The notes beneath the pieces are model-generated. The model was not told where the DNA came from. It saw nothing but the letters and a program-made list of their open reading frames with translations, and ran no database searches. From assembly GCF_002211285.1 (NCBI RefSeq), contig NZ_LOKX01000005.1, forward strand, positions 62,001-126,000: a stretch of DNA of 64,000 nucleotides, given 5' to 3'. Positions within the stretch are counted from its first letter, which is position 1; each line of letters begins with the position of its first letter. A program made the translations under genes and the position numbers. The DNA comes from Rhizobium sp. R635 (GTDB taxonomy: Bacteria; Pseudomonadota; Alphaproteobacteria; Rhizobiales; Rhizobiaceae). This document shows, one piece after another, positions 42,674 to 52,841 of the stretch.

Positions 42674-45304
42674 CTATTGCGCAGCGCAAGGAGCAGTCGC
42701 GGCCGGCTCAGGCCCGTTGCTATTCCTGGCTATCGCCATTGCGCTGAACACGTTGCGGAGCTCCGCCACGGCCTTGTTGGCGAGCATGCCGATCGCCAGG
42801 CCGCCGGCGATGGCGAGCAGGTGAAAGACCGGAACCGGCAAGGCGCCGGCTGCCGGCGTCATCAGCAGCTCCGGTACGAAGCGGTGCAGCAGGTAGATGG
42901 GGAAGGCAGAGACCGCGATCAGCGTCACCACGCGGCCGAGCCACACCGGCAGGCGAATATGCGGCAGATAAAGAAGGGCAAGAAGTGCCGCGAAGATCGT
43001 CAGATACTTGATCGTCGTTCCAATCCAGACCGTTTCCCAGAAGGCGAGATAACCGAGCACAACCGCCGCAAGCGCCGTCAGGACCGTCCGCCGCGCTGCG
43101 CTATCGGCAAGGCCGGCGCACCAGCCGAAGATGCCGAGGTAAAATCCCCAATAGATCGTGAAAATCTGCCGCTTGCCGATGTCGAAGACGGGCGGAAGGG
43201 AAAAGCGCGCGGCGACAGCCAGTCCCAGCAGGCCAAGCGAAAAGGCGAAGGGTCTTGCCCGCGCGAGTTTGCGCACCGCAGGCACGGCGAAAATGAGCAA
43301 GAAGACGAGAAGCGTCTGCGCATAGGCTTCGATGAACCAGTAGAGATAGGGAACCATCTCGTGGCGCTCCGGATCGGCATAACCGAAATTGCCGGTCAGC
43401 GTGATCGAGGCCCAGGGAAGCGTCCGCCACGCGAGCGCATAGGCGGCGACGATGAAGAAATAGGGAATGAGAACGTTGATGGCGGGGCGCAGCGCATGGC
43501 GGAACTGGCCGGCGAGGAAATGGGCTGATTGGAAGCGCGCCAGGCTGAAGCCGACGAGAAGCAGCATGACGCCCGATCCGCCGGGAATGGGCCACAGCAT
43601 CTCGTGGTGCACCACCACCAGCAGGATGGCCATCGCCCTCAGGACCAGGTCGGTCGGCAACGCCCTGATGTCGGCAAGCCGGGACGAGCGTGTTGCTCTC
43701 AGGCAAGTGTCGAGTTCGGCGATCCGCATATGCGCCCAGCCTTCCGGCAAGTCGACGCCGAGCCGGTCGAACTCCATGGTCAATTGCAGGAAGCGCAGGG
43801 AATCGCCGCCGAGCGAGACGAAGCTGTCATTGCGGCCGACGGTGAGGGGATAGAAGACGCGGGCATAGGCTTCGAGCACGCCGACCGCCGCCGTACGGCT
43901 TTTCTCACGTGTCTTGCGCATCTCCTCCCCAAGCCTGTCATAGTCGATCTTGCCGGAGGCAAGCCTCGGCAGGTTCGGTTGCTCGGCAACGGAGATCAGG
44001 TTCGCGGGAAGATGGCTCGCCTGCGCAAGGATCCGCCGCGCCCGGTCGGCCCCGCCCGCTTCAGCCACATAGGCCTGCAGACCTTCATCGTCACCCACCA
44101 CCGCAGCCGCGATGCCGGCCTCCGCCAGAGCCTGCTCCATGATGTCGAAGCCGATCCTCAGGCCCGCGACCTTGGCGAAACGGCTTTTGCGCCCGACGAT
44201 GCGGAAAAAACCCTGCTCGTCGCGGACGGCGATATCGCCGGTATGCAGTGCGTCGACCTCGGCCGGGCGCGCGAGATCGGAGCGATCCGTGCCATAGCCC
44301 ATCATCACGTTCGGGCCGGAATAGACGAGTTCTCCAGCGGCACCCGGCCGGTCGACCGGTTTTCCGTCATCATCGACAAGGCTGAGGCTGCCGCCTGATA
44401 TGGCGATGCCGATCCGCTCTTCATTGTCCGACAGGCTCTCCGGCGGGACGAAGGCGATACGGGCCGCAGCCTCGGTCTGGCCGTACATGACGAAGAAGCG
44501 GCCGCCGCCGGCGCGCATGTGGTCCCGATAGAGGCGAATGCGTTCGGGAGCGAGCCTTCCGCCGGCCACGGTCATGAAGCGCAGCGCCTTGAGCTCAGCC
44601 GTCCGGAAGCGCGTCTTTTCCATGAGTTCATAGGAGTAAGGCACGCCCGAAAAATTGGTGCAGCCGCTTTCGCCGATCACGCGCGCGAAATCGTCGCTCA
44701 TCACGGAGACGCCGGGGAAGAAAATGCTGCCGCCGGCGATCAGGTGGGAATGGAGAACGGAGAGTCCATAGGAGTAGTGAAGCGGCAGGACGAGGGCAGC
44801 CCTGTCGGCCGGGGAAAGGTCGAGATAACCCGCGATCGAACGCGCATTGGCGTCGAGACTGGCATAGGAAAGGCGCACGGCCTTGGCAGCGCCCGAGCTG
44901 CCGGAAGTCATCAGCACGAGAGCGAGATCGGGATGAAGTTGCTGCGCGCTCCGCGCAGGCCGGCTTTCCTCGATCAGGCGCCAGCGGCCGTCGACCGGAC
45001 GGAAGGTGAAGTCGGGCCGAAAGGCTGCGAGAAAATCACTCCATAGCCGGCCGTCGCATGGGGGCAGCATGGCGACCGCATGGCCTGCGCGCAGCGCGCC
45101 CAGATAGGCGACGATCATATGCTCGGAGGTTTCCGCCGAGATCGCGACAAGCCGCTTTTCTCCTCGGCCCAGCCGCTCGGCAAACCGCAAGGTTCGCGCG
45201 TTGAGATCGGCATATGAAAGCGTCCGCCCGTCGGCGAAGACAAGCGCCGGGCGATCATCCGCGCGAAGGATTTCTGACAAGATGTCGACAGGGATCATGC
45301 TCAT
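42674..45304 (-). CDS. Adenylation domain - carrier domain - membrane acyltransferase 3 fusion protein
   Basis: A three-part protein of 876 residues. Residues 1-465 are an ANL adenylating domain: P-loop TSGSSGAAK (133-141), MYGQTEAAA (273-281), HTGDI (354-358), GFFRIVGRKSRFAKVAG (365-381) and the catalytic Lys452 in ASGKIDY. Residues about 470-540 are a carrier domain with the phosphopantetheine serine Ser502 in LGGDSLRF. Residues about 550-850 form an acyltransferase-3 membrane domain (about ten helices) starting RAMAILLVVVHH, with the expected His566/567. The protein could activate an acid, load it on its own carrier and transfer it across or onto a membrane glycan, like DltA-DltC-DltB in one chain. 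Substrate unknown. It lies 54 bases after the iron permease. Confidence 0.88.
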   Translation of the reverse strand: MSMIPVDILSEILRADDRPALVFADGRTLSYADLNARTLRFAERLGRGEKRLVAISAETSEHMIVAYLGALRAGHAVAMLPPCDGRLWSDFLAAFRPDFTFRPVDGRWRLIEESRPARSAQQLHPDLALVLMTSGSSGAAKAVRLSYASLDANARSIAGYLDLSPADRAALVLPLHYSYGLSVLHSHLIAGGSIFFPGVSVMSDDFARVIGESGCTNFSGVPYSYELMEKTRFRTAELKALRFMTVAGGRLAPERIRLYRDHMRAGGGRFFVMYGQTEAAARIAFVPPESLSDNEERIGIAISGGSLSLVDDDGKPVDRPGAAGELVYSGPNVMMGYGTDRSDLARPAEVDALHTGDIAVRDEQGFFRIVGRKSRFAKVAGLRIGFDIMEQALAEAGIAAAVVGDDEGLQAYVAEAGGADRARRILAQASHLPANLISVAEQPNLPRLASGKIDYDRLGEEMRKTREKSRTAAVGVLEAYARVFYPLTVGRNDSFVSLGGDSLRFLQLTMEFDRLGVDLPEGWAHMRIAELDTCLRATRSSRLADIRALPTDLVLRAMAILLVVVHHEMLWPIPGGSGVMLLLVGFSLARFQSAHFLAGQFRHALRPAINVLIPYFFIVAAYALAWRTLPWASITLTGNFGYADPERHEMVPYLYWFIEAYAQTLLVFLLIFAVPAVRKLARARPFAFSLGLLGLAVAARFSLPPVFDIGKRQIFTIYWGFYLGIFGWCAGLADSAARRTVLTALAAVVLGYLAFWETVWIGTTIKYLTIFAALLALLYLPHIRLPVWLGRVVTLIAVSAFPIYLLHRFVPELLMTPAAGALPVPVFHLLAIAGGLAIGMLANKAVAELRNVFSAMAIARNSNGPEPAATAPCAAQ

Positions 45305-45358
45305 GCTTCAGGTTGCCGGAAAACTTGCCGAAGCGCCTATAATCCTTGAGTATCACAG

Positions 45359-47038
45359 TCAACTACTAGCGGCGTGACCCATTATTTTTTGATGTTGATC
45401 GGCCGCTTTCCTGCCCACTCTCGAAAGCATGGCAACCGGCAGGATGCCGACCGCCACGATGGCCAATGCGACCAACGATGCTTCCTCATATGTGCCGCGA
45501 GCGGCCTCGCCGTAGAGATGCGTCGCGAACGTCTCGAAGTTGAGAGGCCTGAGGAGCAGGGTCGCAGGCAGTTCCTTGACGCAATCGACGAAAACGAGGA
45601 GCGCCCCGGTGGCGAGCGCCGTTTTGGAGAGCGGCAAATGCACATTCATGAAGGTCTGGTTGGCCGTTTTGCCGAGGGTCCGGGACGCATGGTCGAGCGA
45701 CAGCGGTATGCGGGACAGCCCCGCATCGATGCTTCCGGCCGAGATGGCAAGGAAGCGAACGACATAGACATAGATCAGGGCCGCTCCCGAACCCATCAGC
45801 AGCAGCCCGGTTGAATATCCGAACCATCGTTGTGCCGTCTGATCGACGATCCTGTCGAAAGAGGCGAGCACGATCAGGGAACCGATCGCGATCACCGTGC
45901 CGGGTGCTGCATAACCCATGGTCGAAAGGCGATAGGTCCAGCCGGTAAGCGCGCCCGGCCTCAGCCGGCTCGCATAGGCAATCACCACGCCGAGAACCAC
46001 AGCCAGAACCGTGGCGATCGAAGCGAAGCTCAATGTATTCAGAGCTTCCGCGGCGAACCGGTCGGAAATGCCCGTGAATGTCCAGCGTTTGAAAGCCTCG
46101 ACGGCGAGATAGAGGCCGGGAATGGCAAAGCCGATCAGTGCCGGCAGGATGCCGAGGGCAAACAGGGCTGGAGAACGCCAGCCATGGACCCGGCGCGGTG
46201 CAGCCGGATTGAAGCGCTGCGTCCCCGTGCTGTAGCGCTGCTTTCGCCGTGCCCAGCGCTCGAGAGACACGAGCAGGACGACGAGAAACAGAAGAAGCAG
46301 GGCGATCTGAGAAGCGCCCGGAAGATCGGAGCGCGTGACCCAGGTCGAATAGATCGATACCGTCAGCGTGCGGATGCCGAGAAACTCGGATGCGCCGATG
46401 TCGTTCAGCGTTTCCATCAGGGCAAGGCTGATCCCGACGGCGATGGCAGGCCGGGCAAGGGGCAGCGCCACTTTCCACAGCACGGCGCGTTGGGTTACGC
46501 CAAGCGTCCGGGCAGCCTCGATGAGATTTGCGGACTGCGTGAGAAACATCGCCCGCGTCGGAAGATAGACATAGGGATAGAGCACGAAGCCGAGCAGGAA
46601 GATGCAGCCCGGCATCGAGCGAATGTCGGGGAGCCGGAATTCCCGGGGACTGGAATAGCCGAACATCCAACGGATCGCGCCTTGGAAGGCGCCGAGCGGA
46701 TGGAGAATATCGAGATAGGCGTAGGCAATGATGTAGGACGGCACAGCCAGCGGAAGCAGCACCACCCATTCGAGCAGCGCTCTGCCCCGAAAGTCATAAG
46801 CCGTCACCAGCCACGCAAGCATCGTTCCGACAATTCCGCTCACCGCCGCCACGCCCGCAAGCAGTATCAGCGTGTTGACGAACGTGATCGGCAGGACGGT
46901 GGCGGCGAGGTGGCTCCAGAGCCCGTTTGACGGGAGCGCCGCCTGAGAGGCGATCCCGAGAACGGGAAGCAGAACGAGTACGGCAACCAGGCAGGATGCC
47001 CGCGTCCAGCCCGAGAGATGGTTTCGGCGCTTAGCTAT
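45359..47038 (-). CDS. fbpB: Ferric iron ABC transporter permease, FbpB type (start unresolved)
   Basis: A duplicated-domain permease of the FbpB/SfuB type with about twelve membrane segments and two EAA-like loops (ARTLGVTQRAVLWKVALPLA and SRTLGKTANQTFMNVHLPLS). From the first ordinary start, GTG 46852, the protein has 497 residues. However, the frame stays open upstream and encodes convincing extra sequence (HLSGWTRASCLVAVLVLLPV, then ITFVNTLILLAGV), matching the two missing N-terminal helices. No ATG, GTG or TTG exists there; ATA at 47038, overlapping the binding-protein stop, would give 559 residues, the usual family length. Either a rare start codon or a nucleotide change explains this. 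Confidence 0.85.
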   Translation of the reverse strand: MAKRRNHLSGWTRASCLVAVLVLLPVLGIASQAALPSNGLWSHLAATVLPITFVNTLILLAGVAAVSGIVGTMLAWLVTAYDFRGRALLEWVVLLPLAVPSYIIAYAYLDILHPLGAFQGAIRWMFGYSSPREFRLPDIRSMPGCIFLLGFVLYPYVYLPTRAMFLTQSANLIEAARTLGVTQRAVLWKVALPLARPAIAVGISLALMETLNDIGASEFLGIRTLTVSIYSTWVTRSDLPGASQIALLLLFLVVLLVSLERWARRKQRYSTGTQRFNPAAPRRVHGWRSPALFALGILPALIGFAIPGLYLAVEAFKRWTFTGISDRFAAEALNTLSFASIATVLAVVLGVVIAYASRLRPGALTGWTYRLSTMGYAAPGTVIAIGSLIVLASFDRIVDQTAQRWFGYSTGLLLMGSGAALIYVYVVRFLAISAGSIDAGLSRIPLSLDHASRTLGKTANQTFMNVHLPLSKTALATGALLVFVDCVKELPATLLLRPLNFETFATHLYGEAARGTYEEASLVALAIVAVGILPVAMLSRVGRKAADQHQKIMGHAASS

Positions 47039-48041
47039 CGAAGCCGACCTTGTCGACCAGTTCGCTCGCCTGCTTGCGGTGGCGCACCACTTCGCCGAGC
47101 GGCGTCTTGTCGATGGTCAGTTTGCCGAATGACTCGATGATGGGATCGGCCGCGACGCCTGCCTTCACCGGATATTCGTAGTTCGCCTCGGCGTAGATCT
47201 TCTGCGCTTCGTCGGAAACCAGATATTCGAGGAGCTTGATCGCCTCGTCCCTGTTCTTGGCGTGCTTGGCGACGGCCGCGCCGCTGATGTTCACCTGCGT
47301 GCCGCCCTCCTTGAAGGTCGGCAGGACGACCTTGATCGCCTGGCCCCAGGCAACCTGATCCTCGCCGCCCTTGCCCGAGCGCATCAGCCCGACATAATAG
47401 GAATTGGCGATACCGATATCGCATATGCCGCCGAGAATATCCTTGGCAACATCGCGGTCGCCGCCGGCTGCCTTGCGCGCCAGGTTCGCCTTGACGCCCG
47501 CCAGCCACTTTTCGGTTTCCTCCGCCCCGTAATGCGCGATGTAATCGGCAATCAAAGCGGTGTTGTAGGGGTGCTGGCCCGGCCGGATGCAGATCTTGCC
47601 CTTCCAGGCGGAATCGGCGAGCTGCTCGTAGTTGAAGGATGTCAGATCGAGGTCCTTCGCCGCATAGAGAACGCGCGCCCTGTAGGAAAGGCCGAACCAA
47701 TGGCCGTCTGGGTCGCGGAGCTGGGACGGGACGGCATCGGTCAGGACAGCGGACTGGATGGGCTGCGTGACGCCTTTCTCGACCAGGTCGACGAGGTTGC
47801 CGGCGTCAACCGCCATCAAAATGTCTGCGGGTGAACTTTCCCCTTCGCTTGCGACACGCTCCGGCAATCCGTCCTTCAGGAAAACGGTGTTGACCGTGAT
47901 GCCGGTCGATTTGGTGAAGGCCTCGAGGAGAGGCTTGACCAGGCCGGGTTCCCGGGTGGTGTAGATATTGACCTCAGCAGCGGTCGCGGCAAGCGGAAGT
48001 GCCGCAGAAATAGCCAGGCCGAGAGTGAAGCGTACGAACAT
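47031..48041 (-). CDS. fbpA: Ferric iron ABC transporter periplasmic binding protein, FbpA/FutA type
   Basis: A periplasmic Fe3+-binding protein of 336 residues. It has a Sec signal ending ATAAE near residue 23, the mature start VNIYTTREPGLVKPLLEAF and the iron-coordinating tyrosine pair in IANSYYVGLM. A further conserved segment is GLSYRARVLYAAKDL. It delivers ferric iron to the permease encoded directly downstream. The start at 48041 has GGGGGA upstream. A strong intrinsic terminator separates it from the ATPase gene, so it likely has its own promoter in 48042-48125. Confidence 0.9.
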   Translation of the reverse strand: MFVRFTLGLAISAALPLAATAAEVNIYTTREPGLVKPLLEAFTKSTGITVNTVFLKDGLPERVASEGESSPADILMAVDAGNLVDLVEKGVTQPIQSAVLTDAVPSQLRDPDGHWFGLSYRARVLYAAKDLDLTSFNYEQLADSAWKGKICIRPGQHPYNTALIADYIAHYGAEETEKWLAGVKANLARKAAGGDRDVAKDILGGICDIGIANSYYVGLMRSGKGGEDQVAWGQAIKVVLPTFKEGGTQVNISGAAVAKHAKNRDEAIKLLEYLVSDEAQKIYAEANYEYPVKAGVAADPIIESFGKLTIDKTPLGEVVRHRKQASELVDKVGFDS

Positions 48042-48086
48042 CGAGAGTCCCCCTAACTCGAGAAATGCCGTAGCATCCAGCATACT

Positions 48087-48148: not shown

Positions 48149-48152
<4 letters not shown>
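48126..48152 (-). terminator. Strong intrinsic terminator at the end of fbpC
   Basis: On the minus strand TTGATCGG, a CAG loop and CCGATCAA (48152-48134) are followed by C and seven T (48132-48126). The stem overlaps the fbpC stop codon (48151-48149). This is the clearest rho-independent terminator in the window and it separates fbpC from fbpA. Confidence 0.85.
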
Positions 48153-49189
<1,037 letters not shown>

Positions 49190-50630: not shown

Positions 50631-52841
50631 TCATGCTTCAAAATCGTGGTATTTCATCAACGATCTTTCGAACAACTCTGAATCGCTGAAGTTGTATTTG
50701 GCATGCTGCTTCGGTTGGACATCGTTTATGACGACCGAAAGCTCGGCATTGCGTACGCTTTTCAGCTGCTGCAGGCAGAATTCGACGGCGCGACGGCTCG
50801 TCTTTCCCCATCTGACGACCACCAGCGTTCGCTCCGCTGCCGCCGTCAGATGCATCGTATCGGTCGAAGCGAGCACGGGCGCGCTGTCGAAGACGACGAT
50901 CTTGCCTCTGACGCGGGCCATTTCGATGATGTCAGCTGCATCGCTCGAATGGGTGTGCCGATGGAGCCGGGGATTGCCGGCCGGAATGAAGTCGATACCG
51001 CTTGGATGGTGATGAATGATGTCCCCTAGTCGCACCTGTCCACCCAGGAATTCATTCAACCCATGCTCGAGCTCCGATTGGAAAAACGAGTCCAGCCTTC
51101 CGTGTCGAAGATCGCCGTCGACAAGCAGCACCGGAATTCCGTTTGCGGCGAGTTCGATTGCCAACGATCTGGCGACAAGCGACTTGCCTTCTCCGCTGTG
51201 GGCCGACGTCACGACGATGCTGTTGGGCAACTTTCCGCCATTGGATTGTTTGAGCGAAATGATGACGGTGCGAATTGCCTCGTCGAACATCCCGTCCGGC
51301 ACCTGCCCGAAGAATGTCGACGGATTTCCCCCGTCTTTCCTTTTCAAACGCGGGACGAATCCGGCGGGGACTATGCGCGGCATGCCGGCCATCTGGTCGA
51401 AACTACGGACCGACTTGTCCATCATCTCGACCACGAAAGCGGCTGTCACCGCGATCGAAACTGAAGCCAGGAGGGCGCCGACCAGATAGAAAAGCCGTCC
51501 GCGTCCCTGCGGCGCGAGCGGTACTGCGGCCGGCGACAAGACTTCCAGTTCGGCGCCCGGCAGCAAAGCTTGCCCGGCCAGGGTCCTGCGGTTCTCCTCG
51601 AGCTTATCGAGCGACGTTTGCTCCTTTTCAGCCAGGCGCTGGAGCCGCATCAGTTCCGTTTGCGCCAGGGCAGAGCGAGAGCGCTTATCGTGAGCCGCCG
51701 CCAATGCCGATTGGACTACGTCGTGCTCATGATCAAGCGCCGCAAGCTTGGCGCGTATCGACTGGAGATACCGGTCGATCGCAAGGCTGAGATCGGTGCG
51801 GGATTTAAGGATTTTCGCGCGCGAATCGACCACTGCTTCGGCGGTGTTGCCATATGTTTCGAGAAGACGGTCGAGATCTTGTTCCTGCGCACGAAGCTCG
51901 CGTTGCATTGCGCCGATGCTGTCGGGAATAACGATGGTCTGCAGGGCAAGCGACGGGTCGTCGGCCGCTTCCAGTGTCGATATCGTTGCTCTCATTTCAG
52001 CGCGGCTTTGGTCGATTTTCGTCTGCCGCTCGCCCAACTCCATTATCGACTTGATCTGTTCGACCTGAGCTTCGTCATTTGAGACGACGTCCATCGTTTC
52101 CTGATATTGGTCGGCGGCGTCGCGTGCCGCCTTGGCTCGACCCTGCTGTTCGGCGATGCGCCGCAAAACCCATTCTTCCGCCGCGTCCAGGCGGCCGCGG
52201 AAGCTGTTCTTTCGCTCTTCAAGGTAAATACTGATGAGCCGGTTCGGGACCGAGGCTGCCAGCTTGGGGTCACTCGCATCGAAGCCGATCTGAATGACGT
52301 CACCCTGGCCGTCGCGCCACACGCGGAGCGCCCTGTAATATTCCGGAATTATGGGCTCTATGCTGTTTCGTGCCGACAACGACGATTTTTCTCTGTCGAC
52401 CAAGCCGCGCATCAGTGCCCGGATCTCGCCGATGAGCGAGGTCTTCCGCAGCGCCGGATTGAACTCCGGCCACTGATCGAGCCTCAGGTCGCGGATGACC
52501 CGCTCTGCGATGCTTCTGGAAAGAAGCCGCTCGGTCTCCGATGTGACGTCCAGCCGATCGTTGAGGCCGGCGTCTTCCGCGTCGAGCGTCGTGGCCAAAG
52601 GCCGGTGGATGATCAGCCGGGACTCGGCATGAAAGGTCGGCTTCAACCCCGAAATCCCGATTGCGGCAATTGCCATGAGCAGCGCGACTATGGCCGCGAT
52701 CATGACCATCCTTCGCCGGATGAGGCGCAAGCCTGATGTCAGATCGAAATCGTCCGATCTGGTCTCCACCTGAAACCGGGGATCGTAGCGCATCGACGAG
52801 AGCGAGGTGTTGCGGTCTGGCGGGACGGTTGAAATTGTCAT
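50631..52841 (-). CDS. Polysaccharide co-polymerase with BY-kinase domain (ExoP/Wzc/GumC type)
   Basis: An inner-membrane protein of 736 residues that controls polymer chain length and export. A Wzz domain lies between two membrane helices (about 45-66 and 449-471), with long periplasmic coiled coils at about 210-420. The cytoplasmic kinase has Walker A SAHSGEGKS (546-554) and Walker A' VLLVDGDLRHG (571-581). The C-terminus has only two tyrosines (KYNF, KYHD) instead of a tyrosine-rich cluster, so autophosphorylation control may be reduced. It overlaps the glycosyltransferase upstream by 4 bases. Confidence 0.9.
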   Translation of the reverse strand: MTISTVPPDRNTSLSSMRYDPRFQVETRSDDFDLTSGLRLIRRRMVMIAAIVALLMAIAAIGISGLKPTFHAESRLIIHRPLATTLDAEDAGLNDRLDVTSETERLLSRSIAERVIRDLRLDQWPEFNPALRKTSLIGEIRALMRGLVDREKSSLSARNSIEPIIPEYYRALRVWRDGQGDVIQIGFDASDPKLAASVPNRLISIYLEERKNSFRGRLDAAEEWVLRRIAEQQGRAKAARDAADQYQETMDVVSNDEAQVEQIKSIMELGERQTKIDQSRAEMRATISTLEAADDPSLALQTIVIPDSIGAMQRELRAQEQDLDRLLETYGNTAEAVVDSRAKILKSRTDLSLAIDRYLQSIRAKLAALDHEHDVVQSALAAAHDKRSRSALAQTELMRLQRLAEKEQTSLDKLEENRRTLAGQALLPGAELEVLSPAAVPLAPQGRGRLFYLVGALLASVSIAVTAAFVVEMMDKSVRSFDQMAGMPRIVPAGFVPRLKRKDGGNPSTFFGQVPDGMFDEAIRTVIISLKQSNGGKLPNSIVVTSAHSGEGKSLVARSLAIELAANGIPVLLVDGDLRHGRLDSFFQSELEHGLNEFLGGQVRLGDIIHHHPSGIDFIPAGNPRLHRHTHSSDAADIIEMARVRGKIVVFDSAPVLASTDTMHLTAAAERTLVVVRWGKTSRRAVEFCLQQLKSVRNAELSVVINDVQPKQHAKYNFSDSELFERSLMKYHDFEA

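Follow-up and report, generated by a model that had tools for sequence, protein, structure and literature searches.

The window analysed here is a stretch of 64,000 nucleotides from Rhizobium sp. R635 (contig NZ_LOKX01000005.1, positions 62,001 to 126,000). It contains a gene (42674..45304, minus strand) for a protein of 876 amino acids in which an adenylation (A) domain, a carrier (T) domain and an acyltransferase-3 (AT3) membrane domain follow one another; the protein is called A-T-AT3 below. I found that A-T-AT3 represents a conserved family whose genes have operator-like sites of iron-starvation control and, frequently, ferric-iron importer genes as neighbours. These two signals suggest that A-T-AT3 probably helps the cell obtain iron. 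It seems probable that A-T-AT3 is an iron-starvation enzyme, a self-contained transmembrane acyltransferase that passes acyl groups to an acceptor outside the cytoplasm and aids the uptake of ferric iron.

The open reading frame (ORF) is intact and begins with ATG. Residues 1-470 (43895..45304, minus strand, as for all parts of this gene) form the A domain, which matches Pfam AMP-binding (PF00501, E = 1.6e-46) and ANL folds with Z up to 39.5, including DltA (3e7w, Z 38.6). It has a P-loop-type TSGSSG at residues 133-138 and a catalytic lysine, Lys452 (codon 43949-43951). Thus, by domain, fold and catalytic lysine, the A domain belongs to the ANL adenylate-forming superfamily. Residues 471-545 (43670..43894) correspond to a predicted carrier (PP-binding) domain, in which Ser502 of the sequence GGDSL (codon 43799-43801) aligns with the GGDS serine of LgrA, and residues 546-862 (42719..43669) to the membrane domain. 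In the window protein itself, the Acyl_transf_3 match (2.3e-6, 27.3 bits) and the PP-binding match (0.0027, 18.4 bits) are under the Pfam gathering scores of 31 and 20.8, respectively. When the rows of a 38-row family alignment (the window protein and 37 of 72 stop-free loci, picked for diversity) were scanned singly at E <= 0.01, AMP-binding was found in all 38, Acyl_transf_3 in 29 and PP-binding (PF00550) in 28. PP-binding exceeds the Pfam cut-off in four of four actinobacterial proteins scanned.

The first-pass annotation, made from the letters alone, had described an intact single chain of ANL, carrier and acyltransferase-3 domains, and the ORF, the Pfam matches and the family alignment bear this out. 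Lys452 and Ser502, which it had singled out, are invariant in the 48 rows (34 of the 72 stop-free loci, the window protein and 13 other loci) from which a quick tree was also made. Arg556 (codon 43637-43639), His567 (codon 43604-43606), Tyr804 and Arg282 are invariant too, and Glu659 and His807 are kept in 47/48 rows. Thus, the loss of catalytic residues in homologues, named by the annotation as a possible refutation, was not seen. It had also noted a pair of histidines at 566-567; His567 withstands this comparison, while residue 566 is His in just 18 of the 48 rows.

Arg556 and His567 form the R-X10-H motif described for the first transmembrane helix (TM1) of AT3 proteins (PMC9833829). A search by Foldseek alone with the predicted model of the isolated AT3 domain (predicted local distance difference test score, pLDDT, 93.5) gave nothing under E 0.001; HGSNAT and GWT1 emerged only on VIA realignment. 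There, the best 11 rows were all HGSNAT or GWT1 (Z from 14.4 to 9.3, the following row at Z 6.2), a range to be read with caution, as unrelated helical models may score up to about 13-14; two of these rows are titled merely 'membrane proteins' and are aligned over the residues of HGSNAT. The model aligns with HGSNAT 8vly at Z 14.4 over 277 residues (4.8 A) and with GWT1 8xik at Z 10.8. Because of the blank Foldseek search and the chance level of Z, the claim of a transmembrane acyltransferase (TmAT) fold leans on VIA, Pfam and the motif jointly, by which the membrane domain is assigned to the acyltransferase-3 / TmAT class. The N-terminus of AT3 proteins is cytoplasmic (PMC9833829), so the fused A and carrier domains would sit on the ATP side of the membrane.

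Is this architecture conserved? The base sample was the 80 best loci from one-per-species genomes, which range from Rhizobium (89% identity) down to Verrucomicrobia (35%). In 72 of them the matched range is free of stops, which argues against a chance fusion and supports the earlier suggestion that one chain could adenylate, carry and membrane-transfer an acyl group. The other eight were set aside for stops, frame or N in the matched range; L049 and L050 have stops only close to its end. Some Mesorhizobium and Rhizobium copies (L052, L071, L079 and L080) have many frameshift-like stops in the range, so the gene may be lost at times. Actinobacterial plasmids carry A-T-AT3 at 34-36% identity, and annotated plasmid records mostly label it 'AMP-binding protein'. 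Hence the search for conserved architecture that the annotation had proposed gave a clear outcome: A-T-AT3 is a conserved family of Rhizobiaceae, other Alphaproteobacteria, Actinobacteria and Verrucomicrobia. A-T-AT3 or its A domain was found in 25 of 247 genomes of the family (protein search, E <= 1e-60); with a hidden Markov model at E <= 1e-80, it was found in 11/297 genomes of the order, 8/289 of the class and 23/398 of the phylum. These counts take in the window's own genome and the relatives whose parts are split. When the ORFs around the 80 loci were clustered, no cluster other than A-T-AT3 itself extended to more than six genera.

In rhizobia, the iron regulator RirA binds the motif TGA-N9-TCA (PMC8822346, PMC6386902), and a putative operator of this type lies before the window gene (45347..45361, minus strand). 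It overlaps a -35-like TTGAC, and its TGA is the stop codon of the importer permease gene upstream. Thus, A-T-AT3 seems to have its own iron-type promoter despite following the importer genes. This iron-responsive operator (IRO) was searched for from 200 bp upstream of the A-T-AT3 gene to 30 bp into it, with dinucleotide shuffles as the null. It was found in 47 of 80 sampled loci against a shuffle mean of 2.96 and a maximum of 7 of 80. All 38 loci of Rhizobium, Mesorhizobium, Sinorhizobium, Ensifer and Shinella have it, as do all eight further Rhizobiaceae loci (the window included), while elsewhere it was found in 1 of 34. The plain motif occurs before 92 of 646 control ORFs of the same loci; the stricter form TTGAC-N8-TCA, in which the IRO overlaps the -35-like element, is present in 38/38 loci of the five genera versus 21 of the 646 controls. 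The half sites are kept across loci and the middle bases vary. In L197 and L219, one IRO sequence between divergent importer and A-T-AT3 genes reads on both strands. Among 14 Rhizobiaceae loci fetched by genome, nine have the IRO; this test covered 17 of 20 loci (L196-L198 had no called gene, and L197 was counted among the 80 sampled loci), some of them on contigs already counted there. In summary, A-T-AT3 promoters of Rhizobiaceae carry, with exceptions, the predicted operator that marks the RirA regulon.

The A-T-AT3 gene of S. meliloti Ak57 is located three genes ahead of ndk. I take ndk to be SMc00595, which would make the A-T-AT3 gene SMc00592; attempts to confirm this identity found nothing, and it is a lead only. 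On swarm plates, SMc00592 ('hypothetical, transmembrane protein') changes together with an iron-binding protein gene and with hmu, exb and fhuF (PMC2848241, Table 2).

In Actinobacteria, a site resembling the IdeR/DtxR consensus (PMC7762939) at 13-15 of 19 positions lies within 100 bp of A-T-AT3 or of the first gene of its operon in all ten loci. At 13 or more matching positions, such a box was found in only 1 of 72 control promoters, namely that of an Nramp metal transporter. Two Arthrobacter-type copies that have no importer beside them carry it too (15 of 19). Fur-like boxes were sought at 25 other loci and none was clearly beyond chance, since at least 7 of 100 mononucleotide shuffles reach each of them. 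The upstream regions of the Balneatrix (L092) and Leisingera (L084) copies have neither an IRO nor a clear Fur-like box.

In the window, the genes run in the order ATPase (48149..49189; ABC_tran, 2.6e-39), FbpA-family ferric-iron-binding protein (47031..48083), permease (45359..46852, a listed ORF) and A-T-AT3, all on the minus strand, with 54 bp between the last two. The importer is judged to be ferric because its binding protein matches FbpA-type structures (1y9u, 1.3e-138), which agrees with the annotation's placement of A-T-AT3 behind a ferric-iron importer. The permease frame is open and conserved for about 60 residues before its first GTG (46853-47050, minus strand), back to the end of the binding-protein gene. 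This extension has no ATG, GTG or TTG, indicating an unusual start codon or a sequence error.

The pairing recurs in three arrangements, with A-T-AT3 after, before or divergent from the ferric importer. Another Rhizobiaceae genus (L182) has the gene order of the window, and the importer is divergent in L197 (Rhizobiaceae) and in Pararhizobium L219. In Rhodococcus, A-T-AT3 precedes the binding protein, permease and ATPase genes in 5/5 records examined, and in Mycolicibacterium it follows the ferric importer genes in 3/3. The actinobacterial linkage was read from plasmid records, of which ten of the 11 full-length ones listed were examined (H105 was left out); the tally has two further Rhodococcus records and one further Pseudarthrobacter record beyond those listed. 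The binding proteins are of different subfamilies, that of the window being nearest to 1y9u and that of Rhodococcus fascians to SfuA/YfuA (1xvy), and are 27-29% identical to each other. On the 48-row tree, the importer linkage needs at least four changes. In addition, genes for a TonB receptor and a PepSY protein lie directly upstream of a Kiloniellaceae copy (L064). Together with the operator-like sites, this repeated pairing makes the iron connection stronger than the annotation had it.

Several findings weigh against an iron-uptake role. Most alphaproteobacterial copies lack a linked ferric importer: a tblastn search of the L032-L111 flanks revealed neither a binding protein nor a permease of ferric type, and no ferric importer adjoins the copies of R. 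lentis, R. etli, S. meliloti, NT-25, Rhodobacter, Arthrobacter and Pseudarthrobacter. Of 25 Rhizobiaceae genomes searched, 18 have a homologue of the window's binding protein, which adjoins A-T-AT3 in two of these. The annotated flanks examined name no gene for siderophore synthesis. The IRO was not found in 5 of the 14 genome-fetched Rhizobiaceae loci (L190-L194, one of them of the window's own genus), nor at L160, L161, L170, Phyllobacterium L067 and Nitratireductor L072, and the window's importer operon has none within 368 bp of its ATPase gene. A chromatin immunoprecipitation sequencing study of S. fredii gives 10 RirA peaks, five of them bearing the motif, and its main text contains neither 'AMP-binding' nor 'AMP-dependent'; RirA may therefore leave the predicted site unoccupied there. 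In Phenylobacterium (L095) and Verrucomicrobia (L106), the copies have no Fur-like box beyond chance and adjoin polysaccharide-type (nucleotide-sugar or flippase) genes. Finally, two Rhodococcus proteins among the four actinobacterial ones scanned have no Acyl_transf_3 match at E <= 0.01.

How else may these data be explained? The enzyme might remodel the envelope during iron starvation, acylating a lipid, peptidoglycan or a glycan when iron is scarce without making any iron ligand. The known AT3 proteins mostly modify envelope sugars (PMC9558356), many A-T-AT3 copies stand alone, and iron-type operators fit any low-iron gene. Envelope remodelling accounts equally well for the operators and does not account for the pairing with ferric importers, which, found with two subfamilies in two phyla, is more specific than a general envelope response; I regard it as a somewhat doubtful explanation. 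An unlikely one is that the enzyme decorates a polysaccharide, either secreted or of the surface, for instance with the 3-hydroxybutanoyl groups known on the exopolysaccharide (EPS) of R. leguminosarum, the iron control being incidental. The neighbours of the L095 and L106 copies speak for it, as do relatives with a split A domain that sit in flagellin-glycosylation, capsule and EPS loci. The annotation had likewise pointed to a surface-polysaccharide locus near the window gene. In the window's branch, however, conservation is seen for the operator-like site and not for any neighbouring polysaccharide gene. Decoration may hold in branches like that of Phenylobacterium L095, with its nucleotide-sugar genes alongside. 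Pfam gave no match for the Wzc-like window gene (50631-52841), nor for the gene before A-T-AT3 in L104 and L106, which was read as an O-antigen polymerase.

It is very improbable that A-T-AT3 is a genuine Dlt-like system for the transfer of D-alanine or another amino acid, even though the three-part logic is shared and DltA is among the fold matches. In amino-acid adenylation domains, an Asp binds the amino group of the substrate. This Asp of LgrA (in FDGS) aligns with Ser178 of A-T-AT3 (phmmer alignment, positions counted by hand), and position 178 is Ser, Cys or Ala in 48/48 rows. A canonical amino acid is thus unlikely as the substrate, contrary to one of the two substrates that the annotation had offered. 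By the same substitution, the A domain does not qualify as an amino-acid-specific adenylation domain of the non-ribosomal peptide synthetase or DltA type. The DltA equivalog was likewise rejected, as TIGR01734 scores 41.9 bits against a cut-off of 559.85. His176 (43/48 rows) and the invariant Gly180 presumably resemble the residues of acyl-CoA ligases.

Returning to A-T-AT3 as an iron-starvation enzyme, the following course may be proposed. The cytosolic A domain would adenylate a small carboxylic acid without an alpha-amino group, and the acyl group would pass to the phosphopantetheine arm that the fused carrier bears on Ser502. Once loaded, this arm would reach into the TmAT/AT3 pore in the way that acyl-CoA does in related proteins, and His567 would help to move the acyl group onto an acceptor at the outer side of the cytoplasmic membrane. 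When iron is plentiful, the gene would be repressed by RirA in Rhizobiaceae or by IdeR/DtxR in Actinobacteria. Through its product, A-T-AT3 probably promotes the delivery of ferric iron to FbpA-type binding proteins; my guess is that this product is most likely a small iron ligand, either extracytoplasmic or bound to the surface. In its fullest form, the proposal is tentative: A-T-AT3 would be a complete, previously unknown iron-acquisition enzyme that makes, by way of its own carrier arm through the TmAT pore, an iron ligand on the outer side of the cytoplasmic membrane, and this ligand would hand Fe3+ to FbpABC/SfuABC importers, the pairing having arisen independently in Proteobacteria and Actinobacteria. 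If the course proposed above is right, a single purified protein would allow the passage of acyl groups across membranes to be put to the test. Moreover, through its operator-like sites and importer pairing, what is annotated as no more than an 'AMP-binding protein' in rhizobia, rhodococci and mycolicibacteria becomes a specific candidate for a ferric-uptake step not yet described.

Relatives with their parts apart were also found. In the Rhizobiaceae locus L161 (L161:7761-10511), an AT3 gene (338 amino acids) is followed after 45 bases by an A-T gene (562 amino acids), so that two genes encode the system here. In other classes of the phylum, the closest A domains are stand-alone proteins. Fused, two-gene and split relatives share, with few exceptions, a signature of the active site (Y[SC][YF]G[LM]S, QAGG or VAGG, and MYGQTEAxxR), which is not present in the other ANL proteins of the window genome that were aligned with them. 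In L138 (L138:4434-16300), scanned gene by gene, the A domain is flanked on one side by LuxE, LuxC and a Maf glycosyltransferase, and on the other by PseF, PseI, PseG and, with a score below cut-off, a PseH-like gene; the carrier-looking ORF of this locus, 80 amino acids long, has no Pfam match. A FabG-like reductase was confirmed in L136, and the carrier in L162 is barely below the Pfam cut-off. Polysaccharide loci of Parabacteroides and Deinococcus have annotated sets of acyl carrier protein (ACP) and A domain. Unless scanned, the neighbouring ORFs of the 80 loci, L138, L161 and L182 are greedy calls named by eye from their N-termini.

Stand-alone A-domain relatives (L136-L149, L165, L166, L169 and L211), were met repeatedly in loci for pseudaminic acid, flagellin glycosylation and polysaccharides. 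Many of them are accompanied by a small carrier-like ORF, a short-chain dehydrogenase/reductase, LuxE and LuxC, and LuxE/LuxC may there take a step in sugar modification. On R. beringeri pRlX3 (L208:6236-17284), a TonB siderophore receptor and FhuB adjoin a group made up of a split A domain, an ACP, a transketolase pair, an acyl-CoA reductase, a long-chain ligase, a GMC oxidoreductase and FabZ. This group looks like an undescribed natural-product cluster.

The gene set of the split relatives resembles group II of the Aeromonas flagellin glycosylation islands, which has an ACP, a 3-oxoacyl-ACP reductase, an AMP-dependent synthetase, LuxE and LuxC (PMC7874193); the likeness is one of gene content, the Aeromonas sequence not having been compared. 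The split A domains carry the YSYGLS / QAGG / MYGQTEAxxR signature of the fused protein. Unlike A-T-AT3, the Aeromonas island has a separate ACP, no AT3 and the additional LuxE and LuxC, and adjoins pseudaminic acid genes; the available part of that paper reports no gene-by-gene test of it. The best NCBIfam match of the A domain, TIGR03098 (exosortase-A-associated acyl-CoA ligase; 169 bits against a cut-off of 592), is a stand-alone ligase, unlike the fused protein. The FbpABC/SfuABC ferric-iron ABC importers are recurrent gene neighbours of A-T-AT3, and, to my knowledge, the known systems work without such an acyltransferase.

The Dlt system, which comprises the ligase DltA, the carrier DltC and the membrane acyltransferase DltB, shares with A-T-AT3 the activation by ATP, the carrier thioester and the transfer across the membrane. 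In this functional logic, the likeness drawn by the annotation stands. It does not extend to the parts, since A-T-AT3 is one chain, lacks the amino-binding Asp, has iron-type operators and has an AT3/TmAT domain, whereas the Dlt membrane acyltransferase is an MBOAT. No MBOAT family is among the Pfam matches (E <= 0.01), and a chain of 7f3x, which I take to be the MBOAT LPCAT3, aligned at Z 4.2 over 65 residues. In the open-access literature, no description of AT3 fused to adenylation or carrier domains was found, and thus no known family of the same architecture, which the annotation had also named as a possible refutation. In the parts available of an AT3 review and two structure papers, the only AT3 fusions described are those with SGNH and alanine racemase and eukaryotic ones (PMC9558356, PMC9833829). 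With the acyltransferase-3 / TmAT superfamily (OafB, OatA, HGSNAT and GWT1), A-T-AT3 shares R-X10-H in TM1 and a TmAT-like fold, and it differs from the known members by its N-terminal adenylation and carrier domains. If the proposed mechanism is true, A-T-AT3 would be a carrier-fed member of a superfamily whose members are thought to use acyl-CoA.

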